From an uncultured Gemmiger sp. (GTDB taxonomy: Bacteria > Bacillota > Clostridia > Oscillospirales > Ruminococcaceae), in the NCBI GenBank assembly GCA_944386495.1, contig CALXBE010000017.1, positions 1-51,318 of the forward strand: a stretch of DNA of 51,318 nt, written 5' to 3'. This document shows, piece after piece, positions 48,317 to 51,245 of this stretch (the stretch's first letter is position 1; every line of letters begins with the position of its first letter). A model generated the notes under the pieces. The model was not told the DNA's origin, made no database searches, and saw only the letters and a list, made by a program, of their open reading frames with translations. A program made the position numbers and the translations under genes.

Positions 48317-49192
48317 TTAAACAAAGGGAACCACGGAGCCGTTGTAGGTCTCGTTGATGTAGTTCTGGATGGTCTCGCTCTTGAGAGCCTCCACCAGAGC
48401 CTGAATCTTGGGCAGGTTCTCGTTGCCCTCCTTCACGGCGATGATGTTGACAAAGTTCTCCTTGATGGACTCGCTCTGAGCATCTTCCAGGGCAACAGCA
48501 TCAGCGCTGGTGTAACCTGCTTCCAGAGCATAGTTGCCGTTCAGAACCACAAAGGAAACCTCGGAAGCCATCCGGGGAATCTGAGCAGCCTCAATTTCCA
48601 CGATCTCCAGCTCGTTGGGGTTCTCCACAATGTCGTTGACGGTGGCGGTCAGGCCTGCGCCCTCAGCCAGGGTGATGATGCCGTTGGCCTCCAGCAGAGC
48701 CAGAGCACGGGCCTCGTTGGTGGGGTCGTTGGGAACGGCAATGGTGTCGCCCTTGGCCAGCTCAGCCAGGTCGCTCTTGGCGCCGGGGTAGATGCCCAGG
48801 GGCTCGTAGTGGATGGAACCGGCGTTGACCAGGTGGGTGCCACGGCTCTCATTGAACTCGTTCAGGTAGTTGATGTGCTGGAAGTAGTTGGCGTCAAACT
48901 CGCCGGACTCTACCACTTCGTTGGGCTGTACATAGTCGCTGAATACCTTGACCTCCAGCTGGTAGCCCTGTTCCTCCAGGATGGGCTTTACCTGCTCCAG
49001 AATCTCGGCATGAGGGGTGGCGCTGGCAGCCACGGTGATGGTGTTGTCCTCAGCGGACTCCTGAGCAGCAGTGTCCTGAGCGGCATCCTGTGCGGCGTCC
49101 TGAGTGGCGTCTCCTGCGGTGCTGGTGCTGCCGCAGGCGGTAAGGGTCAGGGCCAGAGTGAGGGCCAGGACCAGTGCAATAAACTTTTTCAT
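48317..49192 (-). CDS. metQ: Methionine-binding lipoprotein MetQ
   Basis: A 291-residue substrate-binding lipoprotein of the NlpA family. The lipobox LTAC puts the modified cysteine at residue 20, followed by an Ala/Asp/Gln linker. The binding domain has the family motifs VVESGEFDANYFQHINYLNEFNES and IAVPNDPTNEARALALLE. It delivers methionine, probably both isomers, to the MetNI transporter. It is the last gene of the operon, 17 bases after metI. Confidence 0.94.
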   Translation of the reverse strand: MKKFIALVLALTLALTLTACGSTSTAGDATQDAAQDAAQDTAAQESAEDNTITVAASATPHAEILEQVKPILEEQGYQLEVKVFSDYVQPNEVVESGEFDANYFQHINYLNEFNESRGTHLVNAGSIHYEPLGIYPGAKSDLAELAKGDTIAVPNDPTNEARALALLEANGIITLAEGAGLTATVNDIVENPNELEIVEIEAAQIPRMASEVSFVVLNGNYALEAGYTSADAVALEDAQSESIKENFVNIIAVKEGNENLPKIQALVEALKSETIQNYINETYNGSVVPFV

Positions 49193-49209: not shown

Positions 49210-49866
49210 TTATTTTCTCTTATCTAAACGGCCTGCAATTGCGTTGCCTGCCATTTGGAACACTTGGAACAGCAGAATCAGGAGCAGTACGGTGACGATC
49301 ATAATGTCGGTCTCGTACCGGTAGTAGCCATACTGGATGGCAATGTCTCCCAGTCCGCCGCCGCCCACGGCGCCTGCCATGGCGGAATAGCCCAGAATGG
49401 TGCCCAGGGCAATGGTAGCCCCGGTGATCAGGCTGGTGCGGGCTTCCACCAGCAGGACCTTCCAGATGATCTGGAAGGTGGTTGCCCCCATACTCTGGGC
49501 GGCTTCAATGACCCCGGCATCCACTTCTTTCAGGCTGCCTTCCACCATACGGGCGATAAAGGGAGCCGCAGCGATGACCAAAGGCACAATGGTGGCAGTG
49601 GGGCCGTAGCTCTTGCCCACGATTGCCTTGGTAACGGGGATAATTAAAATAAGAAGAATCAGGAAGGGGGTGCTCCGCACCACATTGGCAATCACATCCA
49701 GCACCCGGTAGACTACCCGGTTGGGGGACAGTCCGCCCTGGTCTGTCACCGACAGGAGCACGCCCATGGGAAGGCCCAGCAGATACCCGAACAGGGTGGC
49801 AAAAATGGTCATGTAAAGGCTTTCCTGAACGCCCTGCCAGAGCATGGAAATCACAGCTTCACTCAT
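49210..49866 (-). CDS. metI: Methionine ABC transporter permease MetI
   Basis: A 218-residue permease with five expected helices. It has the characteristic EAA-type loop VEGSLKEVDAGVIEAAQSMGATTFQIIWKVLL, which contacts MetN, and the N-terminal QGVQESLYMTIFATLFGYLLGLPMGVLL. The start codon overlaps the end of metN by eight bases. Confidence 0.95.
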   Translation of the reverse strand: MSEAVISMLWQGVQESLYMTIFATLFGYLLGLPMGVLLSVTDQGGLSPNRVVYRVLDVIANVVRSTPFLILLILIIPVTKAIVGKSYGPTATIVPLVIAAAPFIARMVEGSLKEVDAGVIEAAQSMGATTFQIIWKVLLVEARTSLITGATIALGTILGYSAMAGAVGGGGLGDIAIQYGYYRYETDIMIVTVLLLILLFQVFQMAGNAIAGRLDKRK

Positions 49867-50887
49867 GGTCGCTCACCTCCTCCAGTTCCAGGCCCCGCTG
49901 GCGCAGGTAGTCCTTCATGGCCTCCTGCTGGGTACTGCCCGGCATAAACTCCAGCAGCATGTCGCCCTTGGCGGTGCCGCCCACATTCTTGGTGTTGGCT
50001 TTCATAATGTTTACCGGCTCCTTGAAGGTGAGGATCAGGTTGGCAATCACCGGTTCAAAGCTGGAATTCTCGGAAAATACGATTCGAATCCGGTTGCCGC
50101 TCTGAATCCGGTCCTGGGTCAGGGTGCGGGTGTCGCCCTCGCTGGGGCTGTCCTTGCTCACCAGTTCCCGGCCCACATCGCTTTGGGGATGGGCGAAAAT
50201 CTGGGCAACGGAGCCCTCCTCCACCACCCGGCCAGCCTGCATAATGGCCACCCGGTTGCAGATCTCCCGGACCACGCTCATCTGATGAGTGATGATGACA
50301 ATGGTCAGGCCCAGCTTCCGGTTGATGTCCTTGAGCAGTTCCAGGATGCTGTAGGTGGTCTGGGGGTCCAGGGCGCTGGTGGCCTCGTCACAAAGGAGAA
50401 TGCTGGGGTTGGAAGCCAGCGCCCGGGCAATGGCTACCCGCTGTTTCTGGCCGCCGGAAAGCTGGGCGGGATAAGCCTGGGCCTTGTCGGACAGGCCCAC
50501 CACTTCCAGCAGTTCCATAGCCCGCTGCCGGGCCTGGGACTTCTTTACGCCCTGAATGGTCAGGGGGAAGCAGATGTTATCCAGAACATTTTTCTGCATG
50601 AGCAGGTTGAAGTGCTGGAAAATCATTCCCATCTTCTGCCGCTGCATTCGAAGCTGGGCACCGTTCAGGCTGGCCAGGTCTTTGCCCTGGACCACCACCT
50701 TGCCCTGGGTGGGAACTTCCAGATAGTTCATGCACCGAACCAGGGTGCTTTTTCCTGCCCCGGACATTCCGATGATTCCGTAGATGTCTCCGGTCTCAAT
50801 CTCTAGGCTGACCCCTTTCAGGGCCTCCAGGATACCGTCCTTGGTCTGGAATGTTTTGTGCAGGTCTTGTACCAGGATCTCTGCCAT
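49859..50887 (-). CDS. metN: Methionine ABC transporter ATP-binding protein MetN
   Basis: A 342-residue ATPase. Walker A is GMSGAGKST (residues 40-48), the signature is [15 protein letters not shown] and Walker B is [12 protein letters not shown]. The C-terminal 90 residues form the NIL (ACT-like) domain that senses methionine and inhibits transport, so full feedback control should be present. I chose the ATG at 50885-50887 with AAAAGGAGG upstream. It is preceded by a 230-base leader with a methionine-rich peptide and a terminator. Confidence 0.95.
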
Positions 50888-50908
50888 ACTATTCCTCCTT
50901 TTGGAACA

Positions 50909-50943
50909 CAAAAAAAGCGGATGCGTCCATTCCGCATCCGCTT
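50909..50943 (-). terminator. Attenuator terminator ahead of metN
   Basis: On the minus strand AAGCGGATGCG, loop GAATGGA, CGCATCCGCTT then five more T. It is a perfect 11-bp stem, placed only about 22 bases before the metN start, so it must control entry into metNIQ. Bases 51002-51009 (TTTCGCAT on the minus strand) can pair with its left arm and loop (bases 50930-50937) to make an antiterminator. Confidence 0.85.
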
Positions 50944-51021
50944 AGTATCCCATCAATATCCCCGAAAGGATAACGGTCCATAACTCAATCTCGGAAAACG
51001 CATGCGAAAATAAACCCTATG

Positions 51022-51081
51022 TTACTGAATGCACATAGAGCCGCACATCATTTCCATGCTGTGAGCGACGATCCGTTTCAT
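51022..51081 (-). CDS. Methionine-rich leader peptide of metNIQ
   Basis: A 19-codon open frame, MKRIVAHSMEMMCGSMCIQ, followed by TAA. An AAAAAGGAG ribosome site lies eight bases before the ATG. Five of the 19 residues are methionine, with four of them internal and clustered at positions 9, 11, 12 and 16, and two are cysteine. It lies between the promoter at 51123-51150 and the terminator at 50909-50943 and has no other visible purpose. Leader peptides rich in the regulated amino acid are the sensing part of classical attenuators: slow translation at the methionine codons would favour the antiterminator. That this happens here is inference. The call is new to this reading and rests on one sequence only. 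Confidence 0.7.
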   Translation of the reverse strand: MKRIVAHSMEMMCGSMCIQ

Positions 51082-51098
51082 AATCGGTTCTCCTTTTT

Positions 51099-51112
51099 CC
51101 TGCTAAAGCAGG
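51099..51112 (-). promoter_or_regulatory. Small hairpin at the 5' end of the metN leader
   Basis: CCTGC, loop TTTA, GCAGG on the minus strand. It lies near the start of the transcript just before the leader-peptide ribosome site, and may protect the RNA end. Confidence 0.5.
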
Positions 51113-51122
51113 TTACTCTATT

Positions 51123-51150
51123 ATCATAGCCCATTTCCCGGCTTTGTCAA
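51123..51150 (-). promoter_or_regulatory. Promoter of the metNIQ leader and operon
   Basis: On the minus strand a perfect TTGACA (51145-51150), 16 bases, TATGAT (51123-51128), about 40 bases before the leader-peptide start. Confidence 0.8.
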
Positions 51151-51192
51151 CCTTTTTCTGATTTTTTCTTGTTTTTCCCTTTTGGGCCGCCC

Positions 51193-51221
51193 TTGACTGA
51201 ACCTGAAATTCCGGGTATAAT
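51193..51221 (+). promoter_or_regulatory. Promoter of the tRNA-Pro gene
   Basis: TTGACT (51193-51198), 17 bases, perfect TATAAT (51216-51221), 24 bases before the mature tRNA. It diverges from the metNIQ promoter. Confidence 0.85.
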
Positions 51222-51245
51222 CAGGTGTAAATCTTTACAGAATAT

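Follow-up and report, generated by a model that had tools for sequence, protein, structure and literature searches.

The metNIQ operon of an uncultured Gemmiger sp., located on the 51,318-base stretch of DNA analysed here (hereafter the window), raises the question of how the transcription of a methionine importer is adjusted in this bacterium. The known regulators of methionine genes in Firmicutes are SAM riboswitches, Met T-boxes and proteins. Attenuators of the trp and his type, as described in E. coli, are built from a leader frame with control codons, an alternative pairing and an intrinsic terminator ahead of the first gene. An initial annotation of the window had proposed an attenuator of this plan, reading methionine, upstream of metN. 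Our analysis supports this proposal: the metNIQ leader is very probably a ribosome-mediated transcription attenuator of the trp type with methionine control codons, which would probably act together with cysteine codons.

Organization of the metNIQ leader

The operon and the parts of its leader are listed in Table 1. Upstream of metN, the minus strand carries a sigma-A-like promoter, followed in the direction of transcription by a ribosome site, by a frame of 19 codons with four internal methionines and two cysteines, and by a perfect 11-pair terminator, as the initial annotation had described them. The metN gene starts with the ATG at 50887, behind the Shine-Dalgarno sequence AAGGAGG (50900-50894). 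The transcript start was assumed to lie at approximately 51116; the leader AUG would then be preceded, as judged from the promoter match only, by its Shine-Dalgarno sequence and approximately 35 transcribed bases, so that the transcript would not be leaderless as that of Streptomyces metL is. The terminator of the window scored 20.5, the maximum among 10 shuffles being 15.6.

Table 1. Coordinates of the metNIQ operon and of the leader parts in the window.
Feature	Position	Strand	Description	Basis
metN	49862..50887	-	importer ATPase for methionine with NIL domain	TIGR02314 9.9e-107 (under the model's curated cut-off); PF09383 NIL 4.8e-18
metI	49210..49866	-	permease of the importer	NF008049 6.3e-69, above the curated NCBIfam cut-off
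metQ	48317..49192	-	NlpA-type substrate-binding lipoprotein	PF03180 1.8e-81; NF008285 8.3e-49 (below cut-off)
Promoter, sigma-A type	51123..51150	-	TTGACA (51150-51145), 16-base spacer, TATGAT (51128-51123)	11/12 consensus matches
Shine-Dalgarno of leader frame	51090..51095	-	AAGGAG	sequence; anti-SD duplex energy -9.3 kcal/mol
Leader peptide frame	51022..51081	-	MKRIVAHSMEMMCGSMCIQ, 19 codons, stop TAA	sequence
Putative control codons	51031..51057	-	internal Met 9, 11, 12, 16; Cys 13, 17	Met/Cys clusters recur in relatives
Segment 1	51042..51077	-	codons 9-14 (51056-51042) with segment 2; codons 2-7 (51077-51062) in outer helices with 50987-50972	ribosome-free fold
Segment 2	50992..51009	-	partner is segment 1 (via 51006-50992) or segment 3 (via 51009-50996)	folds; both energies in 3/400 shuffles
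Segment 3	50930..50943	-	terminator left arm (50943-50933) and part of the loop (50932-50926); antiterminator target	duplex -16.3 kcal/mol
Segment 4	50910..50925	-	terminator right arm (50925-50915) and T tract to 50910	11 pairs, 7 G-C; -18.9 kcal/mol

At the same-genus locus L003, the leader frame reads MKRIAAHSMEMMCGSMCIH and ends with TGA; it differs from that of the window at codons 5 and 19 as well as in its stop codon. In the own genome (81% complete), ATGATGTGY is found at 19 places and the sole Met/Cys frame led by a Shine-Dalgarno sequence is the metN leader; the other places include short chance frames such as MMCGARKSPS (L296).

A 30-codon frame, MDRYPFGDIDGILSGCGMDASAFFVFQKEE (50889-50981, minus strand), was considered as a second leader and set aside for its weak Shine-Dalgarno sequence. 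It covers the terminator and stops just short of the metN start, and L003 shows no difference from the window over approximately 50 bases, from the ATG of this frame to the end of the left arm of the terminator.

Alternative pairings of the leader RNA

The eight-base pairing announced for 51002-51009 was found in the form of 51009-51002 with 50937-50930 (8 pairs, one G-U), and it is extended by the pairing of 51000-50996 with 50943-50939. The resulting antiterminator duplex has 13 pairs in total and an energy of -16.3 kcal/mol, against -18.9 kcal/mol for the terminator stem. When the ribosome was placed at codon 9, 11, 12, 16 or 20 (five positions folded), the best fold up to the terminator loop was the antiterminator. 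In the ribosome-free fold, codons 9-14 pair with 51006-50992 at -13.5 kcal/mol, the outer helices formed by codons 2-7 enclose this helix, and the antiterminator is lost. The competing pairing put forward before, 51034-51029 with 51003-50998, reaches just -3.5 kcal/mol, and the larger ribosome-free fold via codons 2-14 is the better competitor.

The fold of the whole leader has a z of -3.72, and none of 200 shuffles was equally good. The 78 bases between the frame and the terminator were also submitted to 400 dinucleotide shuffles: the energy of the antiterminator was reached in 13 of them, that of the best frame pairing in 98, and both in 3, or in 9 when both pairings were confined to one 24-base segment. 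Given these counts, the antiterminator is unusual whereas the frame pairing alone is not, and the significance of the pairings of the window alone is modest; the comparative evidence presented below is stronger.

In a crude ribosome-position model of the window, the antiterminator probability was 0.82-0.87 with a ribosome anywhere from codon 2 to the stop, and 0.11 (mean pairing) without a ribosome. By itself, the model thus distinguishes a leader with a ribosome from one without, the Met codons having no special place in it, and an untranslated leader should terminate too; this behaviour counts slightly against the attenuator.

Methionine-rich frames upstream of metN in relatives

The initial annotation had named the conservation of the small frame, its Met codons and the terminator among relatives as a check. 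MetN was sought in 3 genomes of the genus, in 396 of the family (132 with E <= 1e-80), in 394 of the order (90 with E <= 1e-95) and in 391 of the class (74 with E <= 1e-100), and the best 80 of 428 MetN loci were taken from named GTDB genomes. Upstream regions came from part of the MetN matches, mostly the best: 70 from genus and family (30 loci, 40 stretches), 80 from the named genomes, 68 from the order (28 loci, 40 stretches) and 67 from a class sample (27 loci, 40 stretches). Since this sampling favours close MetN relatives, the frequencies given here are not census values. Loci and stretches are designated by L-numbers, family and genus groups by f- and g-numbers.

In each region one frame was picked blind among those of 8-60 codons starting with ATG, namely that with the strongest Shine-Dalgarno sequence whatever its composition, and a frame was called Met-rich when it held at least 3 internal Met amounting to at least 12%. 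The main set comprised 213 regions, that is 218 minus L098 and L099 (contigs of L002 and L003), L055 (masked upstream) and L201 and L233 (less than 150 bases); the class sample comprised 66 after removal of L440, which was too short.

Blind frames were found in 58 of the 213 regions, and 36 of the 58 were Met-rich; these 36 are not as many independent cases, because there are close relatives among them. The 1065 shuffled regions of the control, in which dinucleotides and not coding constraints are preserved, gave 160 frames, of which 2 were Met-rich. For the other residues, between 0 and 14 of the 58 frames were rich, arginine coming next after methionine (14/58) and cysteine reaching 9/58, against 3/160 in the shuffles. 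The class sample gave frames in 10 of its 66 regions, 6 of them Met-rich. Most of the sampled MetN are without such a leader: no qualifying frame was present in 155 of the 213 regions, and 22 of the 58 frames held too few Met to be called Met-rich. L192 has a leader of the g216 type that starts with GTG; it lies outside these counts, the blind test being restricted to ATG.

The Met-rich leaders belong to eight family groups (f1, f13, f14, f20, f27, f32, f43 and f52), and they occur in four named records, Lachnospiraceae bacterium IMSAGC_019 (L164), Coprococcus catus VPIC661 (L173), an uncultured Dorea (L175) and a Lachnospiraceae MAG (L169). The peptides vary between groups (MTMMCMMCCELNSRAVRC, MPATVAASRLMMAMQMMDMPMMMGMPMMCRARFG..., MTSDMMMKMNKNVVLHRYGF, MAGRDGMMMAMGMMRMPTLPRARFPHVTR) and have in common a Met cluster, usually with Cys. 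A terminator score of at least 15 was obtained after 47 of 49 leaders, against 13 of 490 when these stretches were shuffled; at the two misses, L053 and L060, a long-loop hairpin was placed by hand. The recurrence of frame, codons and terminator before metN thus agrees with the attenuator proposed for the window. In the order-level group f13/g216, MCMMCG(F/S)ARFSA is found in 7 of 9 aligned leaders, L187 and L205 deviating. The Ala-Arg-Phe codons of this group look like an antiterminator strand, since they can pair, as read by eye, with GAAAACGAGC at the terminator foot. The helix in the best-sampled group (nine leaders aligned) is nearly invariant.

As a separate observation, the frames preceding metN in L191, L221 and L222 (f20, f21) share an RML(C/N)SR-like motif, with few Met in L191 and L222.

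Ribosome position in the leaders of relatives

The ribosome-position model was applied to 34 of the 49 leaders, chosen by hand in two sets of 20 and 14, in which leaders related to one another do not count as independent cases. For a ribosome placed at the last Met codons, the mean antiterminator probability was 0.82 in the first 20 leaders, against 0.64 in shuffles, and it dropped from Met to stop codon by 0.43, against 0.21; the 14 further leaders gave 0.69 against 0.59, with a drop of 0.24 against 0.08. The Met-stall value exceeded the shuffle mean in 18/20 and 10/14 leaders and was equalled by at most 5% of the shuffles in 7/20 and 3/14, which is modest per leader. The drop from Met to stop exceeded the shuffle mean in 16/20 and 9/14 leaders, and is absent in the window and in L003. 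In many relatives, a ribosome that has reached the end of the frame may thus occlude the antiterminator, while the window may instead rely on refolding after release.

Known RNA families

The statement that neither a SAM riboswitch nor a T-box is present was borne out: at the Rfam threshold, no match to the SAM riboswitch (RF00162) or the T-box (RF00230) was obtained in the window, and neither of the two turned up in the leader (50880-51245) when E was allowed up to 5; SAM-I was also absent from the sequence of the own genome, which is 81% complete. Weak matches of the leader to the L20 leader, RAGATH-30 and MicF (E up to 5) were far under the gathering scores and were attributed to chance. 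Among the 80 named metN loci, 20 were compared with Rfam and gave nothing at threshold; several of their upstream regions hold the MET-box-like repeats mentioned at the end. Among the 60 loci of relatives searched, T-boxes were detected at seven (L041, L047, L050, L057, L071, L082 and L087), that of L047 approximately 1 kb upstream of metN, and no Rfam family besides the T-box was found. In the four T-box alignments inspected, AUG follows GAA(G/C) at the apparent specifier, a place that we take to be the specifier codon position.

Met/Cys leaders upstream of other genes

The codon pattern MMC..MC was searched over 396 genomes and matched in at least 139 of them. Of 30 loci fetched, 12 resemble heavy-metal-associated domains (one confirmed, PF00403), five are leaders (L258 and L262-L264 before metN, L268 before metF) and the rest are other genes or chance. 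Twenty further stretches with this pattern brought leaders in L276, L277, L284 and L290, the last being the same genome place as L268. A Met/Cys leader with a terminator is located ahead of metQ-metN in two genomes (L276, L277), ahead of a gene with an MTHFR domain in L290 (metF operon, one genome), where domains for methionine-synthase activation and homocysteine methyltransferase follow, and ahead of a gene for a PLP enzyme, read as cysK, in L284 (one genome). When the upstreams of MetF and CysK were taken as such, a Met/Cys leader was found at 2 of 60 loci, in the genomes of L284 and L290 already found by the pattern; L318 was without usable upstream, and 20 further stretches (19 MetF, 1 CysK) held one weak GTG-start candidate, L386. 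In the g55 genomes of L276 and L277, a second short frame sharing CAGCCCGGTGTNCGAATGTG lies between the attenuator or terminator and metQ.

Judged from the peptides compared, cysteine codons belong to the leader signature, beyond the emphasis that had been put on methionine. In a refinement of the attenuator, sulfur amino acids would be sensed generally, Met and Cys codons both being control codons, and cysteine shortage alone would induce methionine uptake. The cysteine content of the first 23 blind frames, from 70 regions (59 of 562 residues, with Met at 108), and the excess of Cys-rich frames over shuffles point in this direction, as do the leader ahead of the cysK-like gene in L284 and the Streptomyces metL peptide, which ends in CMCRRMCAF (PMC8079986). 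However, some leaders have Met without Cys (L053 and L060, MTSDMMMKMN...), the leader of L089 combines 12 internal Met with a single Cys, and a Met/Cys leader is present at only 1 of 30 CysK loci; this refinement is therefore tentative, its chances falling somewhat short of even.

The Met/Cys clusters are also similar to metal-binding motifs, and the matches of the pattern search to heavy-metal-associated domains could recall a nascent chain that senses metal or arrests the ribosome, the cluster binding copper or another ligand in the exit tunnel and the supply of codons being irrelevant. We consider this very unlikely: the genes after the leaders serve methionine import or sulfur metabolism, the peptides vary between groups save in their Met/Cys content, unlike arrest peptides with a fixed motif, and T-boxes stand before metN in other relatives.

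Proposed mechanism

In the attenuator that we infer, translation of the frame, stalling, control of termination and the direction of the response would be linked as follows. When charged tRNA-Met is scarce, the ribosome would stall in the Met/Cys cluster of the leader and keep the RNA of the frame from the competing fold; segment 2 (51009-50992) would then pair with the terminator left arm, the terminator would be blocked and metNIQ transcribed. When methionine is plentiful, the ribosome would complete the frame and leave, the RNA of the frame would pair with segment 2, and the terminator would halt transcription approximately 22 bases ahead of metN.

That the frame is incidental and the leader an RNA switch, a protein-binding RNA or a plain terminator lowering expression, as its good fold when untranslated and a crude model in which nothing counts but whether the frame carries a ribosome might suggest, has hardly any chance in our view, the blind-chosen frames being Met-rich far beyond chance, L003 retaining its frame despite the changed codons and stop codon, and no Rfam family matching at threshold.

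A point against the attenuator itself is that control of the trp type requires transcription-translation coupling, which has been questioned for Bacillus subtilis. The leader would offer a natural way to ask if, in Clostridia, RNA polymerase and ribosome remain near enough to one another for such control. A common attenuator with Met/Cys codons in this class would report tRNA-Met charging directly, and the apparent exchange of leader and T-box before metN would represent two unrelated RNA mechanisms reading one signal.

Relation to known systems

The mechanism class is already known, and compared with the E. coli attenuators the plan of frame, pairing and terminator is the same here and the control amino acid differs. 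Streptomyces metL is the sole precedent that we found for a Met leader before metNIQ. In Streptomyces lividans TK24, this leader peptide has been proposed as a methionine attenuator, termination being unclear (PMC8079986). Both systems have a Met/Cys-bearing peptide (MSTTSDRTPATEATTTPGARCMCRRMCAF in Streptomyces) directly upstream of metNIQ, but the Streptomyces leader belongs to another phylum, its transcript is leaderless and a typical terminator is missing (PMC8079986). In contrast, the leader described here has a frame led by a Shine-Dalgarno sequence, a strong terminator and explicit alternative pairings, and such leaders are found in many Clostridia. According to a 2013 survey, the attenuators of Rfam were those for His, Leu, Thr and Trp, Ile/Val and Phe attenuators are also characterised, and Met is not listed (PMC3766115). 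The view that a Met leader is unusual has to be qualified by the precedent of Streptomyces lividans metL (PMC8079986).

The met operon of Lactococcus lactis is given as a Met T-box case (PMC7058034). Met T-box leaders precede the same kind of gene and would presumably read the same signal, tRNA-Met charging, but a T-box acts by direct binding of the tRNA, for which no frame has to be translated, unlike the leader described here. In mycobacteria, short poly-cysteine ORFs are reported to control an operon (Canestrari et al. 2020) through codons for a sulfur amino acid in a short frame ahead of it, as proposed here; going by the title of that work, these frames are leaderless and cysteine-only. 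An earlier survey of Actinobacteria (2005) records no conserved terminator hairpins at the mycobacterial poly-cysteine ORFs and no conserved RNA structure upstream of methionine operons (PMC1262725). A broad terminator screen describes, in the accessible text, His leader peptides at hisS and hisZ of Bacilli, which are, as here, ordinary Firmicutes leader peptides at a gene elsewhere provided with a T-box, with histidine codons instead; 'metN' is absent from that text and no Met leader is named in it (PMC2965389).

No report of a Met/Cys leader class in Clostridia was found in the literature searched, a weak negative since most subscription papers lie outside it. The leaders of Clostridia might form a widespread and undescribed class of leader peptides that reads Met and Cys codons together and serves a small regulon (metNIQ, metQ-metN, the metF operon and cysK). 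At metN this class would be interchangeable with Met T-boxes, and it would have arisen independently of, or parallel to, the similar Streptomyces leader; such a class would demonstrate that ribosome-paced attenuation is at work in Clostridia. We hold the chances of this for evenly balanced.

Origin of the operon and other upstream elements

Among the named MetN outside the genus, the 78 best (L100-L177), most of them in Lachnospiraceae records, share 61-71% identity with the MetN of the window; for the remaining sample from its own family, the identity over the full length is at most 58%. This closer likeness to MetN outside the genus than to those of the own family suggests a horizontal transfer of metNIQ. 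A Met-rich blind frame is present at 4 of the 78 loci.

The metN promoters of L035, L067 and L076 carry an inverted repeat over the -35, for example CTAAACCTAT-TGACAAC-ATAGGTTTAG in L067, which was not seen in the promoter of the window; a sulfur regulator of the Rrf2 type perhaps has its operator in this repeat. In L100, L104, L105, L111 and L122, repeats like CTATA(A/G)..TTTAAACTATA precede metN where other relatives carry a T-box or a Met leader, and these repeats are similar to the MET-box of MtaR.
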